Source: Woodsholea maritima DSM 17123 (GTDB taxonomy: Bacteria > Pseudomonadota > Alphaproteobacteria > Caulobacterales > Maricaulaceae). Taken from it: a stretch of DNA of 64,000 nt. Of this stretch, positions 1,301-61,126 are shown piece by piece. The number at the start of each line of letters is the position of its first letter. The first letter of the stretch is position 1. The notes under the pieces were generated by a model. It was not told the origin of the DNA, searched no databases, and saw only the letters and a program-made list of their open reading frames with translations. Both the position numbers and the translations under genes were made by a program. The stretch spans positions 1 through 64,000 of the forward strand of contig NZ_KB908059.1 in assembly GCF_000382325.1 (NCBI RefSeq), read 5' to 3'.

Positions 1301-4300
1301 TTAGAAGGTCATGCGCAGAACAAAGCGTGCGACGTGACGGATGAAGTCTTCGCGCACATCCGCGTCATAGCCCAAGGTGAAGGTGGTGTAGTCAGAGCCC
1401 GCCGACAGGCCCAGGCCGATCAGCAAGCCGCTGCCCGGCAATTGTTCCGACTTCAGGCTAAACGGATTACCGTCTTTACCAAAGCGCGCCGTCGTTTCCA
1501 TGACTTCATCGCCAAACTCATGACGATATCCTACGCGCAAGCTTGGCATCCACCAGCTATTGGCGTTCTCAAACTTACGCGCGAGGGTAAAGCTGGCCCC
1601 ACCGGTGAAGCTGGTGGACTCGCGATCATCAACGATCAAGCCAATACCGGAGTTTTTGTCATTCTCGGTAAAGCCACTTTCGAACAGGGTCAGGTAAGTT
1701 ACACCCAATTCTGGACGTAAAACCCATTTACCCCAATTGTAATCACGCCCGGCTTGCAAGGCAGCAACACCATGCCAGCCCGTCCAATCGGCGGTGGCGC
1801 GTTGATCGAAATTGCCGATTTTGATCCGGCGCTCTGATTCAAAGCTATCAAAGCCGATCCCGGCATAGCCGGATACATCAAATCCAGCGACGTCAGCTGC
1901 GGCATAGGCCCCAACCTGACCTGTGATGGTCACGAAAGGCTCATCTACGCCGTTGACTTCTTGAACTTCGCTGGCCGCACCGACCAGATTAACACCGGCC
2001 GCATAGAAAGGCCCGATGGGGCGGTCAAAGCCGATCGCCAGACCCACGCCATGACCGCGATAGCCTTCCGCCAGGGCAGAGCCGGAACGGTCCGCATAAT
2101 AACCAAACTGCTCAACCCACAGACCCGCCATTGCATCAGGGGCCAGGCGTGCATTACGCAGGCGCGATTGCAAAGCCCCTGCAGAGGCATCATTAGAGGC
2201 CAAAGCAAATTGGATGCCGCTGGCGGCATATTCTGGCAGCAATTGGTTATAGGCTTCGAAGAAGGCATTGGCTTCTTTGATCGCGGCAAAAGCAGAGCTG
2301 AGGGTTTCTGAGGCGCTCATCGCGGTGAAGGCAGCATCATAGGCCGCCGCCTGGTTCGTGCTCATCCCCATATTTTCTGCGCTACGACGGCTAAGGGTCA
2401 AGCGGATGGAGTTGGCATTGTCGGGATTGCGCTCAAGCTTAACATCATAGAGGTAAGGGGTTTCGGTGGCGATGAAGACAGTCTCTTCATTCTCTACCGT
2501 CAAAGTCCCCGCAGTGATGATGTCATAAGTGCCGTTGGACCCGATCAAATCGTCCAAGCTGACAGCCAGGTCAGACCCGTTTTGGAACGTCACATTGCCA
2601 GAGGCATTAACGAAGGCCGTTGCGCCGGCGTCACCCACGCGTGCCGTGTCTTTATTCAGCGTAACATCCAAGACTGCCTGATCTTGGAAGGTGGCGTTGG
2701 ACAGTTCAAGATTGTCGCGACCGCTGAGGGTCAAAGTGGCATCACCAACCGTGACATCCAACTGCCCATCGCTATCGTCGATATCACCCTTCAGCGCCGC
2801 GCCGCCCGATAACAGGAGCTGGTCGTGGCCGTCACCGAATTGAATATCGCCGGTGATGGAACCTGCGCGTATATCTAGAATGTCATCGCCTGAACCCAAG
2901 CGAATATCGCCGACAATCGCAGGAACTTTTGTGTCGGTCGTGACTGCATCATTTTGGGTGATCGTCAGGCCGGTGGTTTGCGCTGAGGCGTCAATGGCAA
3001 CACGGGTATAATTCTCGACCTTGGCATCAGGGTGGATTTCGTTGGTAATGCCATCGCCGTCTGCGTCATAAAGGTCCAGAGGAAGCGCTGTCACGCCTGC
3101 GCTGATGGTACCGGTATTCGTCAACTCACTGAGTGAGTTGCTTTCAACCACAATCGCACGGGCCGATCCTGCGCGCGCAATAGTGGCCGCGATCGTCCCG
3201 TCATTCAATATACGTTCAATATCAGATCCAGCACGAATAACGATGGCGTTGGCTTCGTTGGCCATGCGCTCGTCCCAACCGGGAAGGCCGGGGGCCATTT
3301 TGTTATCTGTTTTATTGACCGAATTGTCGACATCGTTGAAGCCGTCATTGGCATAGCCCAGGCTGGTCGTCGCTCGAATTGTGCCTGAGTTATTGAGTGA
3401 GGCGACTTGAGCGTGTTCGCCAATCACAACCGCTTGCGCATCACCTTCATAAGATGTTGCCAGGACCGTTCCTGTGTTCTGGAAGCCACCTTGAACGATA
3501 ACGGCGCGTACTTCAGTGGTCGTTGGGCCCGTTACGGTGCGCCCCATAATTAAGACGGCAGTGGTGTTTTTACCGTCAAACAGGCCCTCGCTTTGAATAA
3601 GGCCATCATTGACCACGCCATAATCCAGCGTTGCACCGGCATAATGATTGCGATCAAATTCAGCTTCGAGATTGACCTGGCCGATAACAACATCACCGGT
3701 GGCATCTTCACCCGGACGAATTTCTAGCGCAGGCGCTTCACCACGCGCGGTGATCGAGGCCCCATTTTGCGCTTCATTAATATCTGCCGTGTCTTTGTCG
3801 TCAGCATGTGAGCCAATGACGAAGACACCATTTTGAATGCTGCCTTGGATAAGCACGGCCGTGCCACCATTGATGTCATCATCGTTTTTATCCAGCAAAC
3901 GCATGCTGGCTTCAAGCGAACGTTGCGAAATGCGATAACCAGAAACGGCGACATTCCCGGTAAAGCGCAAACCACCGCCGATATCCCCATCAACATAGAC
4001 GCCTTCACCGCGTTGAGCCCCGGTCTCACCCGCATTACGTGGCGAGGTTACGCGCAAGGTACCCCCTACGGAGACATTGCCTGAAACGCTATTTTCAATC
4101 GAAAGCCCGCGCGAGTCTTCACCCACAATGGTGTTGCCGCCGGCCAAAGTGATATTGCCTGTAACAGGGGCTTGAACGCGAATGCCGTACGAATCTTGGC
4201 CCTCAACCGAAATGCGAGAGGATGAATCCTGTGTGATGTTACCAACAAAGGGAGTCGTGCCAGATACCAAGATCGCGGTTTTGTTACGTTCCTCAGAGAA

Positions 4301-19187: not shown

Positions 19188-21749
19188 ATGAAGCCGCGTT
19201 TGAAATCAAGTCGAGCCGCCCGCGAACTCATTAAAACTCATGAGGAGTTTTTGGGCACTGCCCAGAAACGGGGGAAGCGTTGGGTCGTGGGTTTTGGCCA
19301 TACAGCTGCCGCACGTGAGGGCGTTAGCGTTACCCGCGATGATGCTGAGCTGTTATTGCTTTATGATGTGTTACAGGCCGAGCAGGCGATTGATAGCGCG
19401 GTCGGTGAAAGCCTGGCCCCTGAGATCCGCGATGCTTTGGTCTCCTTTGCCTGCTCGATCCGTCCAGGCGCGTTTAAAGTCTCGGATGTGGCGCGTTTGG
19501 CCCGCGATGAGAAGCACCGCGAAGCCGCAGCAGCCTTAGAAACTTGGGTCCGGGTGGAGCAAGATGGCCGTCTGGTCGTGTCTGAGCGCTTGACCCGGCG
19601 CCGGGCTGCAGAAAAAGCGCTTTATCTCAAAGGTTTGAAGTCCTCGACCGCTTTGGCGTCTGCGCCCGTTCCTGCGCCGAATTCCGCACCCGTTGTGGCT
19701 GCGCCGGTCGTGGCACCGGTAGAAGCCACGCCTGCGGTTCAAACCGAGACACCTCAAGGCGTTGAGGCTCAAACTGAAGCGCCGATCGCCAATGATGATC
19801 TGGTCGCGGCCAATGATGTGGCTGACGACATCCTTGAAGCTGATGCTACACCTGCCCGTGAAGGCGTTGAAGCGGCGGCCAATGACACGGCGGTCAAGGA
19901 TGAGCCGCGCCTGGGCCAGCTGGTCGATCTCGATATCGCGTTCGAAGATAGCCCAGACCAAGAGGATGGCCTCGCAGAAGACGTGCTTATCGCTGAAGCA
20001 GCCATTGATGCTGAAGACACGGTTGTCGAGGCTGGGCCTGTTGAAGAGACTGATGAAGCTCCCCTCGAGGCTCCTGCTCAAGTCACTGACTATGACCCCT
20101 CGAGCCTGTGGGGTCGGGAAAACACACCCAGCCTCGATCAACAAGCGCTCAAAGTCTATCAGACCCAGGCGCAAGCTGAACGGGCCGCGATTGATTATTA
20201 TAAAGGTCAGGGCGAAGGCGAAGATCAGATCACGCGCGATGAAGATCGCTTAACGGGCGCGGAAACATCGCCTTTCCTGGGCGGTGAAAATACCCCCAGC
20301 TTGCACCCGAAAATGGCCGAGCAGATGATGGCCTTCGCCCAGGCGCAGACCGCTTTGGTGCGCTTCCAAGTTGAAGATGAAGATCTTGCTGAAGCCCTCG
20401 TGCACGCGGACGCTGAAGACGTGACCGCCGGTGAAGAGCAAGCCGACGAGGCTGAGCCTGAAGCCGCTGTGGCTGTAGAGCACGCGGCCGAAGTCAGCCC
20501 CGTTCAAGAGGCGGTTGAAACGCCAGCCCCGGCGCTGAGTGATGTCGTGGCGGACGAAGGGGTTGAGATCGAAGCCCATATCGAAGAGCTCGAGCCTGCG
20601 CGTCATGATGATGATGCCGAGCGTGAAGCGATTGAGGCCTCTCTTGCGCAATTGGAAGCCGATCTGGCAGGCCGCGAGGGGCATGCCCTTAGCGTTGAAA
20701 GCCATGATAGCCCGGATATCGCGTTAGAGCGTGATGCGTTTGTTGATGTGGAAGCGGTCGAGACGACTGCGCCCGTTACAATCGCGCCAGAGGCTGAAAC
20801 CAAAACCGAGAGCGAAACTGAGGCGGCACCTCTCGCCGTGGAGGCTGAGGCTGAAGCCGAGCTTCACACGTCTTCGCCTGAAGACGCAGAAGCGCGCCAC
20901 CGCCAACAAAACGAAGCCGTTCAGGCCGTGATCGCGCGCATGGCGGCGCAGATTGCGACCAGCGTCGATCTGTCAGCGCTAACGCCCAACGCAGAGACCG
21001 CTCAAGACGGCAGTGAGGCTGCGCCCGAAACCCATAGCCAGCTGGGCTATTCCTTCCTCGATACCACGACGCATGGCGTTAATCTGGACGTTGAGGCGCT
21101 GAACATTCAGGCACCGGCAGAAACGCGTGTGGCTGATGTGGATGCTGAGGCGCAAGTCCAGAGCCCTGAAGAGCGCGTAGAACCGGCAGAAGACGAGGCT
21201 CTTGAGCGGGGGGATCAAATCGCCCAAGGCCCTGGCCCGATAGCCGAACCTGCGGCGCGTAAAATTCATGAGCCGATTGTCATCTCATTAGATGAGGATC
21301 GTCCCAAACCGCCCCAGCACATCACCGGTCCCGCACAAGCGGCAGGTTTCAGTGGGGAGGTGGCCGCGAGCACCCGCCCTTTAGCTGAAGCGACCGCCCT
21401 GGCGGCGGACGAAATGGCGGCCATCGTCCAAGAGGATGAAGAGGATTTGCACCCTGAATTGATCAGTGGTGCGGATAAAGCCCATGCGTTCTTGGAAGAT
21501 GAAGTGATCGAAGCGGCCTCAGCCCATGATGGTCCAGACTGGATCTTTGGGGTGACTTTGTTGGCCGGGGCGGGCTTTGCCGCGCTGGGGGCCTGGGATG
21601 TCATGTCCAATTGGGATTATTACACCCAAGAGGGCTTTATGATGGTGGGGCCAACCGCCTTGGTTTTGGGCCTTATTTTGGTGGTGTCTTCGGCCTGGTT
21701 CCTGCTGTCACGCATAACCGACCGCAAGGGTAATCGCGAAAATACCTAA
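19188..21749 (+). CDS. spmX: SpmX-like polarity protein: muramidase-like domain, long acidic linker, two C-terminal TM helices
   Basis: An 853-residue protein. Residues about 8-145 resemble the GH24 (T4-type) lysozyme fold: ELIKTHEEFL, WVVGFGHT, RRRAAEKALYL. Glu19 aligns with the catalytic Glu, but the usual Asp position is Lys27/Arg28 and the Thr position is Val33, so hydrolase activity is doubtful. Residues about 150-780 are a disordered linker rich in Ala, Glu, Asp, Pro and Val, with two ENTPSL motifs near 308 and 365. Two TM helices follow (about 784-805 and 817-840). This order is that of Caulobacter SpmX, which places the kinase DivJ at the stalked pole, but the linker is far longer (C. 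crescentus SpmX is about 430 residues, from memory). Orthology is inferred from architecture. Confidence 0.8.
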   Translation: MKPRLKSSRAARELIKTHEEFLGTAQKRGKRWVVGFGHTAAAREGVSVTRDDAELLLLYDVLQAEQAIDSAVGESLAPEIRDALVSFACSIRPGAFKVSDVARLARDEKHREAAAALETWVRVEQDGRLVVSERLTRRRAAEKALYLKGLKSSTALASAPVPAPNSAPVVAAPVVAPVEATPAVQTETPQGVEAQTEAPIANDDLVAANDVADDILEADATPAREGVEAAANDTAVKDEPRLGQLVDLDIAFEDSPDQEDGLAEDVLIAEAAIDAEDTVVEAGPVEETDEAPLEAPAQVTDYDPSSLWGRENTPSLDQQALKVYQTQAQAERAAIDYYKGQGEGEDQITRDEDRLTGAETSPFLGGENTPSLHPKMAEQMMAFAQAQTALVRFQVEDEDLAEALVHADAEDVTAGEEQADEAEPEAAVAVEHAAEVSPVQEAVETPAPALSDVVADEGVEIEAHIEELEPARHDDDAEREAIEASLAQLEADLAGREGHALSVESHDSPDIALERDAFVDVEAVETTAPVTIAPEAETKTESETEAAPLAVEAEAEAELHTSSPEDAEARHRQQNEAVQAVIARMAAQIATSVDLSALTPNAETAQDGSEAAPETHSQLGYSFLDTTTHGVNLDVEALNIQAPAETRVADVDAEAQVQSPEERVEPAEDEALERGDQIAQGPGPIAEPAARKIHEPIVISLDEDRPKPPQHITGPAQAAGFSGEVAASTRPLAEATALAADEMAAIVQEDEEDLHPELISGADKAHAFLEDEVIEAASAHDGPDWIFGVTLLAGAGFAALGAWDVMSNWDYYTQEGFMMVGPTALVLGLILVVSSAWFLLSRITDRKGNRENT

Positions 21750-56003: not shown

Positions 56004-56111
56004 GGCGTGGGTGTCCTAGAAGAAAGCTCAGCGCAGAAGGCCAAAAGGGCGGGCTTGTCCCGCATCGCTTCGCGCCGGTCATGCTGTGGGGGTGAGGGCA
56101 AGGAGGATATT

Positions 56112-56519
56112 ATGTTCACAGTTTGGCCGAATTTTAAAGTCTTGGGCGCGGCCCTAGGGGCGGGGGGCTTGATCCTGATCGGGGGGTATGGGGGCCAAAC
56201 ATGGGAGCGCGCGCGAGCGCGGGCGCAGTCAGAAACCCTGCTGCTGGCGCTGCATGAGTGTCAGGCACAAACGGCGCGCTCCTTACAAGATTTAGGCGCG
56301 CGTGAAGCGGCGCTGCGTGAGCATATCACGCAAGAGGTGCGTGAGCGTGCGCGCCGTGAGGTAAACCGTCAAACCGCACAAAATCAGTATCAAGAGGATA
56401 TACGCCATGACCCGTTGGTATGCCCCATGGATGGCGCTCGTATTGAGCGCTTGCATGCACTCGCCCAGGCTGCCAGAGGCCGTGATTTGGCAGGCCCCAA
56501 AACCGCTGACACCCCTTGA
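56112..56519 (+). CDS. Rz-like inner-membrane spanin candidate
   Basis: A 135-residue protein; the ATG at 56112 has AGGAGGA upstream. One N-terminal TM segment (about 9-27, VLGAALGAGGLILIGGYGG) is followed by a long charged helical/coiled-coil region (30-95, Arg/Glu/Gln-rich) and a C-terminal part with LVCPMDGARIERLHALAQ. This is the layout of phage Rz (i-spanin), which spans the periplasm. The call depends strongly on the overlapping downstream lipoprotein frame. No endolysin, holin or structural phage gene is near. An unrelated single-TM coiled-coil protein is the main alternative. Confidence 0.65.
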   Translation: MFTVWPNFKVLGAALGAGGLILIGGYGGQTWERARARAQSETLLLALHECQAQTARSLQDLGAREAALREHITQEVRERARREVNRQTAQNQYQEDIRHDPLVCPMDGARIERLHALAQAARGRDLAGPKTADTP

Positions 56520-56676
56520 CATCGAGCCTATGCCTCTGCCTGAAAACTACGACAGTTTAGACGCTTACACCGGGGCGTGTCTGGTGTGGGGGTTGGGCCT
56601 GGAGGCGCAGATCTATGACCTGCAAAAGCGCACTGACATCCTCCTGTCGGGAACCGCATCGCATGATGGCCGTTGA
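56407..56676 (+). CDS. Rz1-like lipoprotein (o-spanin candidate) overlapping the Rz-like gene
   Basis: An 89-residue protein in another frame, starting 113 bases before the Rz-like stop. GAGG precedes the ATG at 56407. The N-terminus MTRWYAPWMALVLSAC is a lipoprotein signal with lipobox LSAC (Cys16). A Pro-rich stretch follows (APKPLTPLDIEPMPLPEN). Overlap of a short Pro-rich lipoprotein with the end of a TM-coiled-coil gene is the hallmark of Rz/Rz1 spanin pairs, which fuse inner and outer membranes at lysis. It might serve a gene-transfer-agent or a domesticated phage remnant. Confidence 0.68.
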   Translation: MTRWYAPWMALVLSACMHSPRLPEAVIWQAPKPLTPLDIEPMPLPENYDSLDAYTGACLVWGLGLEAQIYDLQKRTDILLSGTASHDGR

Positions 56677-59421: not shown

Positions 59422-59934
59422 CTAAATTTCTTCAACAAGCATCACGAAGGCGGGTTCAAAACGGATCCCGGCTTCAGCAAGGCTGGCGCGATTGGCAAGG
59501 ATGCGCACATTGGGCGCGCTTTGAACGCCGAGCATGCAGATATGCGCGGTGACACAGGCGAGATCGGTGGAAATCGTAACAATGCCTTGGCTTTGCGCGG
59601 CGGCGATCAGGGCTGAATTATTTTTGGCATTACCCACAAGGAAGACCGCATTGGCCCCGCTTAAGGCCCCGACATCTTCACCGATGGCGCGCCCGGTTAA
59701 ACGAATCGAACCGGCTTGAACGCCGCCACTAAGAAGGCCCGCGATATTGGCCGCTTCGCCGGCTCCGTCACCATCATGGGCGATGACCATAACCCTTTCG
59801 CTGCCGCCCGCGCCTTCTAAGAATTTTAAGGCGCGTGCGACCACTTCCAGATCGCGTTGGGTGGTTTGGGCGAAGGTGAGCGATGCCGGACCCATAAAGG
59901 TCAGGCATGCGGCTAATATGACTTTGCGCAACAT
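59422..59934 (-). CDS. Exported YfiR-like (DUF4154) periplasmic protein
   Basis: A 170-residue protein from the ATG at 59934, which gives a signal peptide (MLRKVILAACLTFMGPASLTFAQ by position 1-23). It then shows alternating strands and helices, with SIRLTGRAIGEDVGAL, ANAVFLVGN and a C-terminal NVRILANRASLAEAGIRFEP, similar to the end of YfiR/DUF4154 proteins (ExNLxxAxxAGLxF). The match is partial and rests also on co-transcription with the receptor 30 bases downstream, an arrangement known for YfiR-like proteins. It may sense envelope state, but that is inference. Confidence 0.6.
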   Translation of the reverse strand: MLRKVILAACLTFMGPASLTFAQTTQRDLEVVARALKFLEGAGGSERVMVIAHDGDGAGEAANIAGLLSGGVQAGSIRLTGRAIGEDVGALSGANAVFLVGNAKNNSALIAAAQSQGIVTISTDLACVTAHICMLGVQSAPNVRILANRASLAEAGIRFEPAFVMLVEEI

Positions 59935-59951
59935 CAATCCAAGCCTTTGTT

Positions 59952-59988
59952 TGCATTCGAGCGATTGTGCGCACATTCGCTGAATGCA
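59952..59988. promoter_or_regulatory. 37-nt imperfect palindrome upstream of the receptor operon
   Basis: Arms TGCATTC-G-AGCGA and TCGCTGAATGCA enclose TTGTGCGCACAT. The stem has one mismatch and one bulged G, centred between 59970 and 59971. It ends 18 bases before the start codon of the exported gene, so it may be an operator or mask the ribosome-binding site. Confidence 0.5.
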
Positions 59989-59995
59989 TTTTATG

Positions 59996-60025
59996 AGGCG
60001 TTAATCATGAGGGTGATTAACGCCT
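59996..60025. promoter_or_regulatory. 11-bp perfect hairpin
   Basis: AGGCGTTAATC and GATTAACGCCT flank an 8-base loop, 12 bases after the end of the 60038 gene. It has no T run on either strand, so it is an unusual terminator or an additional operator of the receptor operon. Confidence 0.45.
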
Positions 60026-60037
60026 CGGTAAGGCTGG

Positions 60038-60661
60038 CTAAAGGTCTTTAGGGGTGGGGCGATAGGGTTCCTCACGCACCGCATGACCCAATATAAGTTT
60101 TAAAAAGAGACAAGGAATAAACCAGCTAAGCCCTGGGCCTAGGGGTAGAAAACTGTGAGCGATGATAATGGCAAACAGGCATAGCCCCGCTGCCAAAGGC
60201 CGACGCAGATAAAGCGGAACGGCCAATACACTCAAACACGCCAGTTGAAGCGCGACATACCAGATAAGGCCGACTTGCCATCCGGCCCCCAATAGGCCAG
60301 CCGCGATAATCGGATGGATATGGCACAAGGTGAAGACGAAGGAATGTTTAAAGGCGCGGCCGATGCGGCCTTCACCAGGTTGGGCCGGGGCGTGATAATA
60401 ACGCTTACACGAGTTTAAAAAATTCGCGATCACGCCGCCGCACAGATCAAAGGCGAGAAAGAGAATGAGCGCGCCTTGCCACAGGCCATGATGAGGGCTG
60501 TCCCGCCACCAGATATAACACACGAGCCCAGTGAGAAGAGCGGCGCTGATCATTGTTAGCGCCTGTTCAGCGCGCGTCGCGCCATTGCCCATCAGGGGGT
60601 CGTTTTTCCCCGTGAGCGCCCAATCAATATGGCAGGTTGGCTTTGAAGATGTATCGCTCAT
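60038..60661 (-). CDS. Multi-pass membrane protein, family not recognised
   Basis: A 207-residue protein with about five or six hydrophobic segments. The N-terminal 30 residues are polar and cytosolic. FDLCGGVIANFLNSCKRYYHAP and HSFVFTLCHIHPIIAAGLLG contain conserved-looking His, Cys and Asn residues near membrane surfaces. It starts 9 bases after the preceding gene (60671), so the two form an operon, downstream of TetR-type operator sequences. Function unknown. Confidence 0.75.
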   Translation of the reverse strand: MSDTSSKPTCHIDWALTGKNDPLMGNGATRAEQALTMISAALLTGLVCYIWWRDSPHHGLWQGALILFLAFDLCGGVIANFLNSCKRYYHAPAQPGEGRIGRAFKHSFVFTLCHIHPIIAAGLLGAGWQVGLIWYVALQLACLSVLAVPLYLRRPLAAGLCLFAIIIAHSFLPLGPGLSWFIPCLFLKLILGHAVREEPYRPTPKDL

Positions 60662-60670
60662 GATGGCACC

Positions 60671-61105
60671 TTAAATATGGCCTAGCGCGCGATGGCACAG
60701 CACCATCACATAGGCGGCAAGGATCCCATCCAGGATTTCGATTATACCGAGGAGGAGGGGGATGGGATCTGGCGAGAGCGGGAAGACATGGCCCAAATCT
60801 AGCGCGACCACGAAGATATACCCCCAGGATACACCAATCGCGATCCAGGCCGCGAGGTTATAGCCAAAGCGCAGCATTACCGCGCTGGCGATCGCGATCA
60901 GGCCCAGGCTGATCAAGAAGGCATTAAAGCCCCAAAACACCGGCCCACCGAGATGGGAGAAATCGCGCGTTTCAATGGGGCCGCCGGGGACGAGCGTAAT
61001 GAAGGTCATCACCAGGATCAGAAGACAGGTCGAAGCCATTTTCATAGTGTCACGCTTTTTCTGGGCGCAGAGGTGGGGCACATCATAGGGAGGTTCGTGG
61101 GTCAT
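60671..61105 (-). CDS. Four-helix membrane protein, family not recognised
   Basis: A protein of up to 144 residues. Two starts are plausible: ATG at 61105 (AAAGGA upstream) and ATG at 61045, which begins directly at the first hydrophobic segment (MKMASTCLLILVMTFI). Four TM segments are visible, with FSHLGGPVFWGFNAFLISLG and VVALDLGHVFPLSPDP between them. First gene of an operon with 60038. The TetR-like palindrome at 61127-61140 lies directly upstream, so repression by the divergent regulator is likely. Confidence 0.72.
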   Translation of the reverse strand: MTHEPPYDVPHLCAQKKRDTMKMASTCLLILVMTFITLVPGGPIETRDFSHLGGPVFWGFNAFLISLGLIAIASAVMLRFGYNLAAWIAIGVSWGYIFVVALDLGHVFPLSPDPIPLLLGIIEILDGILAAYVMVLCHRALGHI

Positions 61106-61126
61106 GCGGGGCATCCTTTATTTATT

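Follow-up and report, generated by a model that had tools for sequence, protein, structure and literature searches.

Within the window, by which we mean the whole stretch of 64,000 nucleotides that was analysed, two overlapping genes, here called A and B, probably constitute a phage-type overlapped two-component spanin that now resides, as a unit standing alone, on the chromosome of this Maricaulis-family bacterium. It is very likely that A and B are a spanin-type pair, and their sequences place them, putatively, among the 'overlapped' two-component spanins with the architecture of P2 LysB/LysC. What is unusual is the solitary chromosomal setting of the pair, the proteins themselves being of a known spanin type. 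Spanins are modelled as an envelope bridge that, after loss of the wall, fuses the inner membrane with the outer (PMC9636201, PMC6139136). As members of this class, A would reside in the inner membrane and B, lipidated at Cys16, in the outer membrane; in the periplasm the helices of the two would join as a bridge through the peptidoglycan mesh. An intact wall would hold this bridge apart, and degradation of the wall would allow it to collapse, fusing the inner and outer membranes and completing lysis. Since the pair could act only after another agent has broken the wall, it would most likely be the terminal effector of a lysis begun elsewhere; candidate starters are phage infection, some wall-degrading enzyme, or the release of the genome's own gene transfer agent (GTA).

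Table 1. Positions of the gene pair, its signals and the comparison loci (window coordinates, except for L062 and L068, which are numbered within their own loci).
Feature	Coordinates	Strand	Basis
Gene A, i-spanin-like (Rz-type)	56112..56519	+	profile match, coding signal, controls, helices, own profile
Gene B, o-spanin-like (Rz1-type)	56407..56676	+	lipobox LSAC, coding signal including the non-overlapping tail, low-confidence model
Shine-Dalgarno AAGGAGG of gene A	56100..56106	+	sequence; 5 nt 5' of the A start
Shine-Dalgarno AAGAGGA of gene B, within gene A	56392..56398	+	sequence; 8 nt 5' of the B start
Intergenic stretch common to the pair and the divergent flavoprotein gene	56004..56111	+	sequence
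EcfG-type stress promoter GGAAC-N16-CGTT of the hemerythrin gene	56650..56674	+	pattern match; kept in relatives
Spanin pair, L062 (genome G078)	1468-2050		
Flagellin gene, L062 (genome G078)	2280-3113		
Spanin pair, L068 (genome G038)	1941-1338	-	
Flagellin gene, L068 (genome G038)	1128-298	-	

Coding signal in the two overlapping frames

Gene A encodes 135 aa and gene B 89 aa in the +1 frame relative to A, with an overlap of 113 nt and a further 157 nt of B beyond the end of A. Both frames were assessed with a phase-specific Markov model trained on 901 long ORFs from 2.41 Mb of the same genome, which is the portion scanned out of 3.11 Mb. The scores were +0.079 bits/nt for A outside the overlap and +0.080 bits/nt for the 153-nt stretch of B beyond it. 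Among true in-frame pieces of genes these stand at the 21st and 28th percentile, and both lay above every out-of-frame gene piece of their size. Across the 108 nt of the overlap that were scored, the values were 0.01 bits/nt for the A frame, -0.055 for the B frame and -0.471 for the third frame, which is the pattern of two frames carrying the load jointly. An earlier note on this DNA had described a gene for a transmembrane and coiled-coil protein overlapped out of frame by a gene for a Pro-rich LSAC lipoprotein; its coordinates proved exact and both of these frames are coding.

The geometry of the overlap is by itself weak evidence, because in synonymous resampling with protein A held fixed the B frame stayed open throughout the overlap in 64% of the cases; an ATG-lipobox start reaching the same stop arose in 3.5%. 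A loose scan of the 2.41 Mb for lipoprotein ORFs that overlap the gene of a membrane-anchored, charged protein returned 16 look-alike pairs, 15 of which had at least one non-coding frame, so that A/B was the sole pair coding in both. The codon usage of the pair is native and its G+C content of 59.8% is ordinary (84th percentile), which counts against a fresh insertion, and the intact state of both frames counts against decay. Intact frames and native codon usage would make a retained gene more plausible than a relic, and we regard a resident, functional pair as somewhat probable. A promoter of its own, if there is one, must lie in the intergenic stretch shared with the flavoprotein gene; no strong sigma-70 match was found on its + strand.

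Resemblance to known spanins

Protein A begins with MFTVWPNFKVLGAALGAGGLILIGGYGG, followed by a charged helix. The N-terminal hydrophobic segment (approximately residues 10-26) is its single predicted membrane anchor, and AlphaFold2, run without an alignment, modelled helices at residues 27-99 and 108-122 with a break at HDPLVCPMD between them; pLDDT was above 90 over much of the first helix, while the anchor was modelled at low confidence. Read from its sequence, B carries an N-terminal lipoprotein signal, MTRWYAPWMALVLSAC, with the lipobox LSAC and Cys16, and its +2 residue is Met and hence not the inner-membrane Asp, which predicts sorting to the outer membrane. This signal is followed by a Pro-rich linker (8 Pro within the 31 residues after +2) and by a C-terminal helix at residues 51-84 in a structure model of low confidence. 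Cysteines lie in the predicted periplasmic parts of both proteins, at Cys50 and Cys104 in A and, besides the lipid Cys16, at Cys58 in B. Periplasmic cysteines able to link the subunits by disulfide have been described as universal in two-component spanins (PMC6139136). The overlapped gene arrangement, with coding in both frames, likewise has its counterpart in P2 LysB/LysC, where the o-spanin gene follows the i-spanin gene in the +1 frame, starting inside it and ending past it, and where a membrane-anchored coiled coil is paired with a Pro-rich lipoprotein, each with Cys in its predicted periplasmic part (PMC6139136). A/B differ from overlapped spanins such as LysB/LysC in lying in a chromosomal, cellular setting, with neither an endolysin nor a holin adjacent and with no relative at BLAST level in the collections that were searched.

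The profile evidence concerns protein A. Against the PHROG 214 family 'Rz-like spanin', A scored 27.6 bits (E 4.6e-6), with residues 10-133 aligned to profile positions 10-130, and a cassette-linked i-spanin of a related genome, scanned identically, scored 28.7 bits. We also built our own i-spanin profile from 16 phage and prophage sequences, excluding A; 14 of these came from IMG/VR contigs, where they had been located through an adjacent endolysin, and 2 from related genomes. When 9,123 ORFs of the genome (60-260 aa) were scored with it, A ranked second with a modest 13.8 bits (E 0.03). The first rank went to an antisense ORF of 63 aa, which lies opposite a gene for an efflux-adaptor-like protein and matched the anchor only, and A is thus the best plausible gene in this set. 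Its match spans not just the anchor but the coiled coil and the C-terminal motif (pldpdRvaRLr in the profile, pMDGARIERLH in A).

The possibility has to be weighed that A is an ordinary cellular membrane-anchored coiled coil, similar to FtsL or FtsB, that B is an unrelated lipoprotein and that their overlap is coincidental. Coiled coils do give spurious spanin matches, and B belongs to no family; seven cellular controls from this genome, all membrane-anchored and either charged or coiled-coil, had spanin-family scores as high as 18.9 bits. However, the top cellular control aligned to the anchor and first coil only, whereas A scored 8.7 bits above it with a near-full-length match that includes the C-terminal motif. 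Furthermore, a Pfam scan of A returned no family at its cut-off, and no second pair of such geometry coding in both frames was found in 2.41 Mb, so we consider a coincidental overlap very unlikely. The spanin reading is favoured even though PHROG 214 has a background of its own: in a scan of 150 genomes the matches were mostly long coiled coils, with a 495-aa coiled-coil frame reaching 26.8 bits, a background count that is a lower bound because the scan missed A in its own genome. The same scan led to genuine spanin pairs in four genomes. A fold search with the model of A found nothing among viral structures at E <= 0.001, a result that says little for a single helix.

B had no match in PHROG and ranked 217 of about 9,120 in our own o-spanin profile, and it is assigned as a putative o-spanin by its anatomy and its partner. 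O-spanins are short, not every genuine one is expected to match a profile, and a profile match is not a defining feature of the class in the literature that we used. The Rz/Rz1 identity put forward in the earlier note, which had also suggested a search of the pair against spanin profiles, is thereby supported: two profiles, checked against controls, recognise A, and the pair has the expected gene architecture with coding in both frames. At the level of sequence B remained unmatched.

Related genomes have overlapping pairs with the gene order and domain layout of A/B immediately behind an endolysin gene, and viral contigs have such pairs in the vicinity of endolysins. Two of these pairs, in genomes G078 and G038, share with A/B and with the PHROG 214 Rz-like spanins the near-full-length profile match, the C-terminal motif and the pair layout, and their i-spanins are 30-36% identical to A in gapped alignment. 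They differ from A/B in their location directly after an endolysin (phrog_465 in L068) within a lysis cassette. In both genomes, which belong to one Caulobacterales genus, the spanin pair and the endolysin lie directly beside a flagellin gene, together with a tail-fibre-like ORF rich in Gly and a membrane ORF resembling a holin, all in the same order, which suggests that the end of a resident phage or tailocin adjoins flagellin there.

At BLAST level, A had no relative in 60 genomes of the same order, GTDB contigs, IMG/VR, phages or plasmids, and B had none in the 60 order relatives, IMG/VR or phages; none of the order relatives compared is congeneric. Similarly, 24 relatives and 80 GTDB loci had no comparable pair beside their flavoprotein gene. 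The pair may be of young or orphan origin.

Chromosomal setting and the hemerythrin promoter

To the left of the pair lie typA/bipA, the gene of an AIM24 protein and the divergent gene of an HI0933-type flavoprotein, and to the right the genes of a hemerythrin, a Pmp3/YqaE protein and a TonB-type receptor, the last named from its sequence. No phage structural or lysis family was detected in the ten neighbours within about 12 kb, and no holin or endolysin cassette was found among them; location in a lysis cassette is usual in phages and is not part of the spanin definition. The cellular nature of the flavoprotein, hemerythrin and Pmp3/YqaE neighbours, as first proposed from the letters alone, was thus supported. 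The accompanying statement that the window holds no endolysin, holin or phage structural gene was accurate near the pair and needs correction further away, where a PF00959 domain is present at 19266-19613, though in an SpmX-like protein. Beside the TonB-type receptor gene, three consecutive genes (59422-61114, - strand; 184, 207 and 147 aa) had no match in PHROGs, and the first two had none in Pfam either.

This setting bears on the alternative that the pair has no role today and derives from a prophage, either as its remnant after excision or erosion or as its cargo. Protein A is clearly of phage type, and the absence of orthologs at the same place in relatives fits a lineage-specific arrival. 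Nonetheless, no other phage gene, integrase or tRNA adjoins the pair (the window has one tRNA, at a distance of 41 kb), both frames, the Shine-Dalgarno sites and the lipobox are intact, and the codon usage is native, which makes a functionless remnant unlikely in our view. The genome contains four genes of phage-integrase type, two of which are XerC/D-sized (309-aa frames). The other two are tyrosine integrases in an island on contig C1 at 1.10-1.13 Mb (1095000-1135000), where ParB-like, TraG/VirD4-like and DNA-invertase-like ORFs were recognised by eye; we rejected this island as a prophage and read it as a conjugative, plasmid or ICE-like element.

A stress operon formed by the pair, hemerythrin and yqaE, with an envelope task, was also considered, as these genes lie on the same strand and only 27 nt separate the stop of B from the start of hemerythrin. 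An EcfG-type promoter nevertheless sits in the last codons of B, 29 nt before the hemerythrin ATG, and an identical pattern search found that 16 of 18 relatives have such an element 5' of hemerythrin; the pair, yqaE and the flavoprotein gene were not found in the 1.5-kb hemerythrin flanks of those 16. The sequence GGAAC-N16-CGTT is the alphaproteobacterial EcfG pattern (PMC6599016). It was found twice in the window against 1.57 occurrences expected, which is not above chance, and the promoter is convincing because it is kept across relatives rather than by this count. As hemerythrin has its own EcfG-type promoter, its adjacency implies no common function with the pair. The operon was rejected on the conservation of this promoter and is highly improbable; the pair was apparently placed, or left, 5' of a stress gene by rearrangement.

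Spanins outside phages have a precedent in the type 10 secretion systems (T10SS; Serratia chiWXYZ and the Yersinia entomophaga system), which like A/B are chromosomal and lie among cellular genes; the T10SS spanins adjoin their own holin and endolysin, whereas A/B adjoin neither (PMC10847048). If the resident reading of A/B holds, stand-alone spanins exist outside phages and also outside complete T10SS cassettes. More such pairs may be missed in bacterial chromosomes, as overlapping o-spanin genes often go unannotated in phage genomes, according to a survey of 196 systems (PMC6139136).

Wall-degrading partners and the gene transfer agent

We searched the genome for lysis partners of the pair. 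The GH108 endolysin family PF05838 had no match in the genome, and three endolysins and three holin-like ORFs from the related cassettes, used as phmmer queries, had none in 78% of it. The GTA holin family PF11351 was not matched here, but it was not matched in any control genome either. The GH24 family PF00959 had a single match, within a protein at window positions 19188-21749 that at 853 aa is presumably unusually long for the SpmX family. The protein has the lysozyme domain at its N-terminus, hydrophobic segments at its C-terminus and a long acidic region between them. This is the layout of SpmX, a repurposed lysozyme-like protein (PMC5347347), and the candidate was rejected as an endolysin on its domain layout, that of the SpmX cell-polarity protein.

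The genome also encodes an intact-looking GTA cluster (PF13547) on contig C3 at 238.7-252.7 kb, in which no lysis gene was recognised by reading. Known lysis modules of GTAs are lineage-specific and encoded away from the cluster, as for the holin-endolysin of Rhodobacter capsulatus and lypABC of C. crescentus (PMC13236601). A/B share with these alphaproteobacterial release modules the encoding of a lysis function apart from the GTA cluster, although the proteins are different. The pair could accordingly be the release module of this lineage's GTA, or its terminal part, with the spanin finishing lysis after another factor has opened the wall, and both the lack of a recognisable lysis gene in the cluster and the external position of the known modules are consistent with this. 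On the other hand, the pair and the cluster are on different contigs, no promoter element was demonstrated as common to both, and the ghost cells of C. crescentus, which keep their shape, point to a non-classical route of release (PMC13236601). The earlier note had proposed a check of whether the presence of the pair correlates with GTA clusters, and no such correlation emerged: the GTA marker was present in 50 of 61 genomes and the pair detectable in none of the 60 others, a comparison limited by the fast divergence of spanins. A GTA role is therefore doubtful in our estimation; it is a special case of the resident reading, and the likelihoods that we attach to the two overlap.

More speculatively, a domesticated orphan spanin might fuse the membranes as the last step of GTA release or of another programmed lysis, uncoupled from holin and endolysin and in need of a wall-opening trigger from the host. 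For the exit of GTAs from Caulobacterales cells a single hub is known, LypABC; its distribution is patchy, with the full set present in just 4 of the 11 Caulobacter species that bear a GTA, and no lytic effector downstream of it is known (PMC13236601). As a putative spanin of a Caulobacterales genome that has a GTA and in which no lysis cassette was recognised, the pair would offer a concrete, deletable candidate for release. Within the GTA cluster itself, a small ORF for a membrane-anchored coiled coil (locus L153, C3:241420-241713) lies between a portal-like and a protease-like gene and weakly matches phrog_19911, a family of unknown function.
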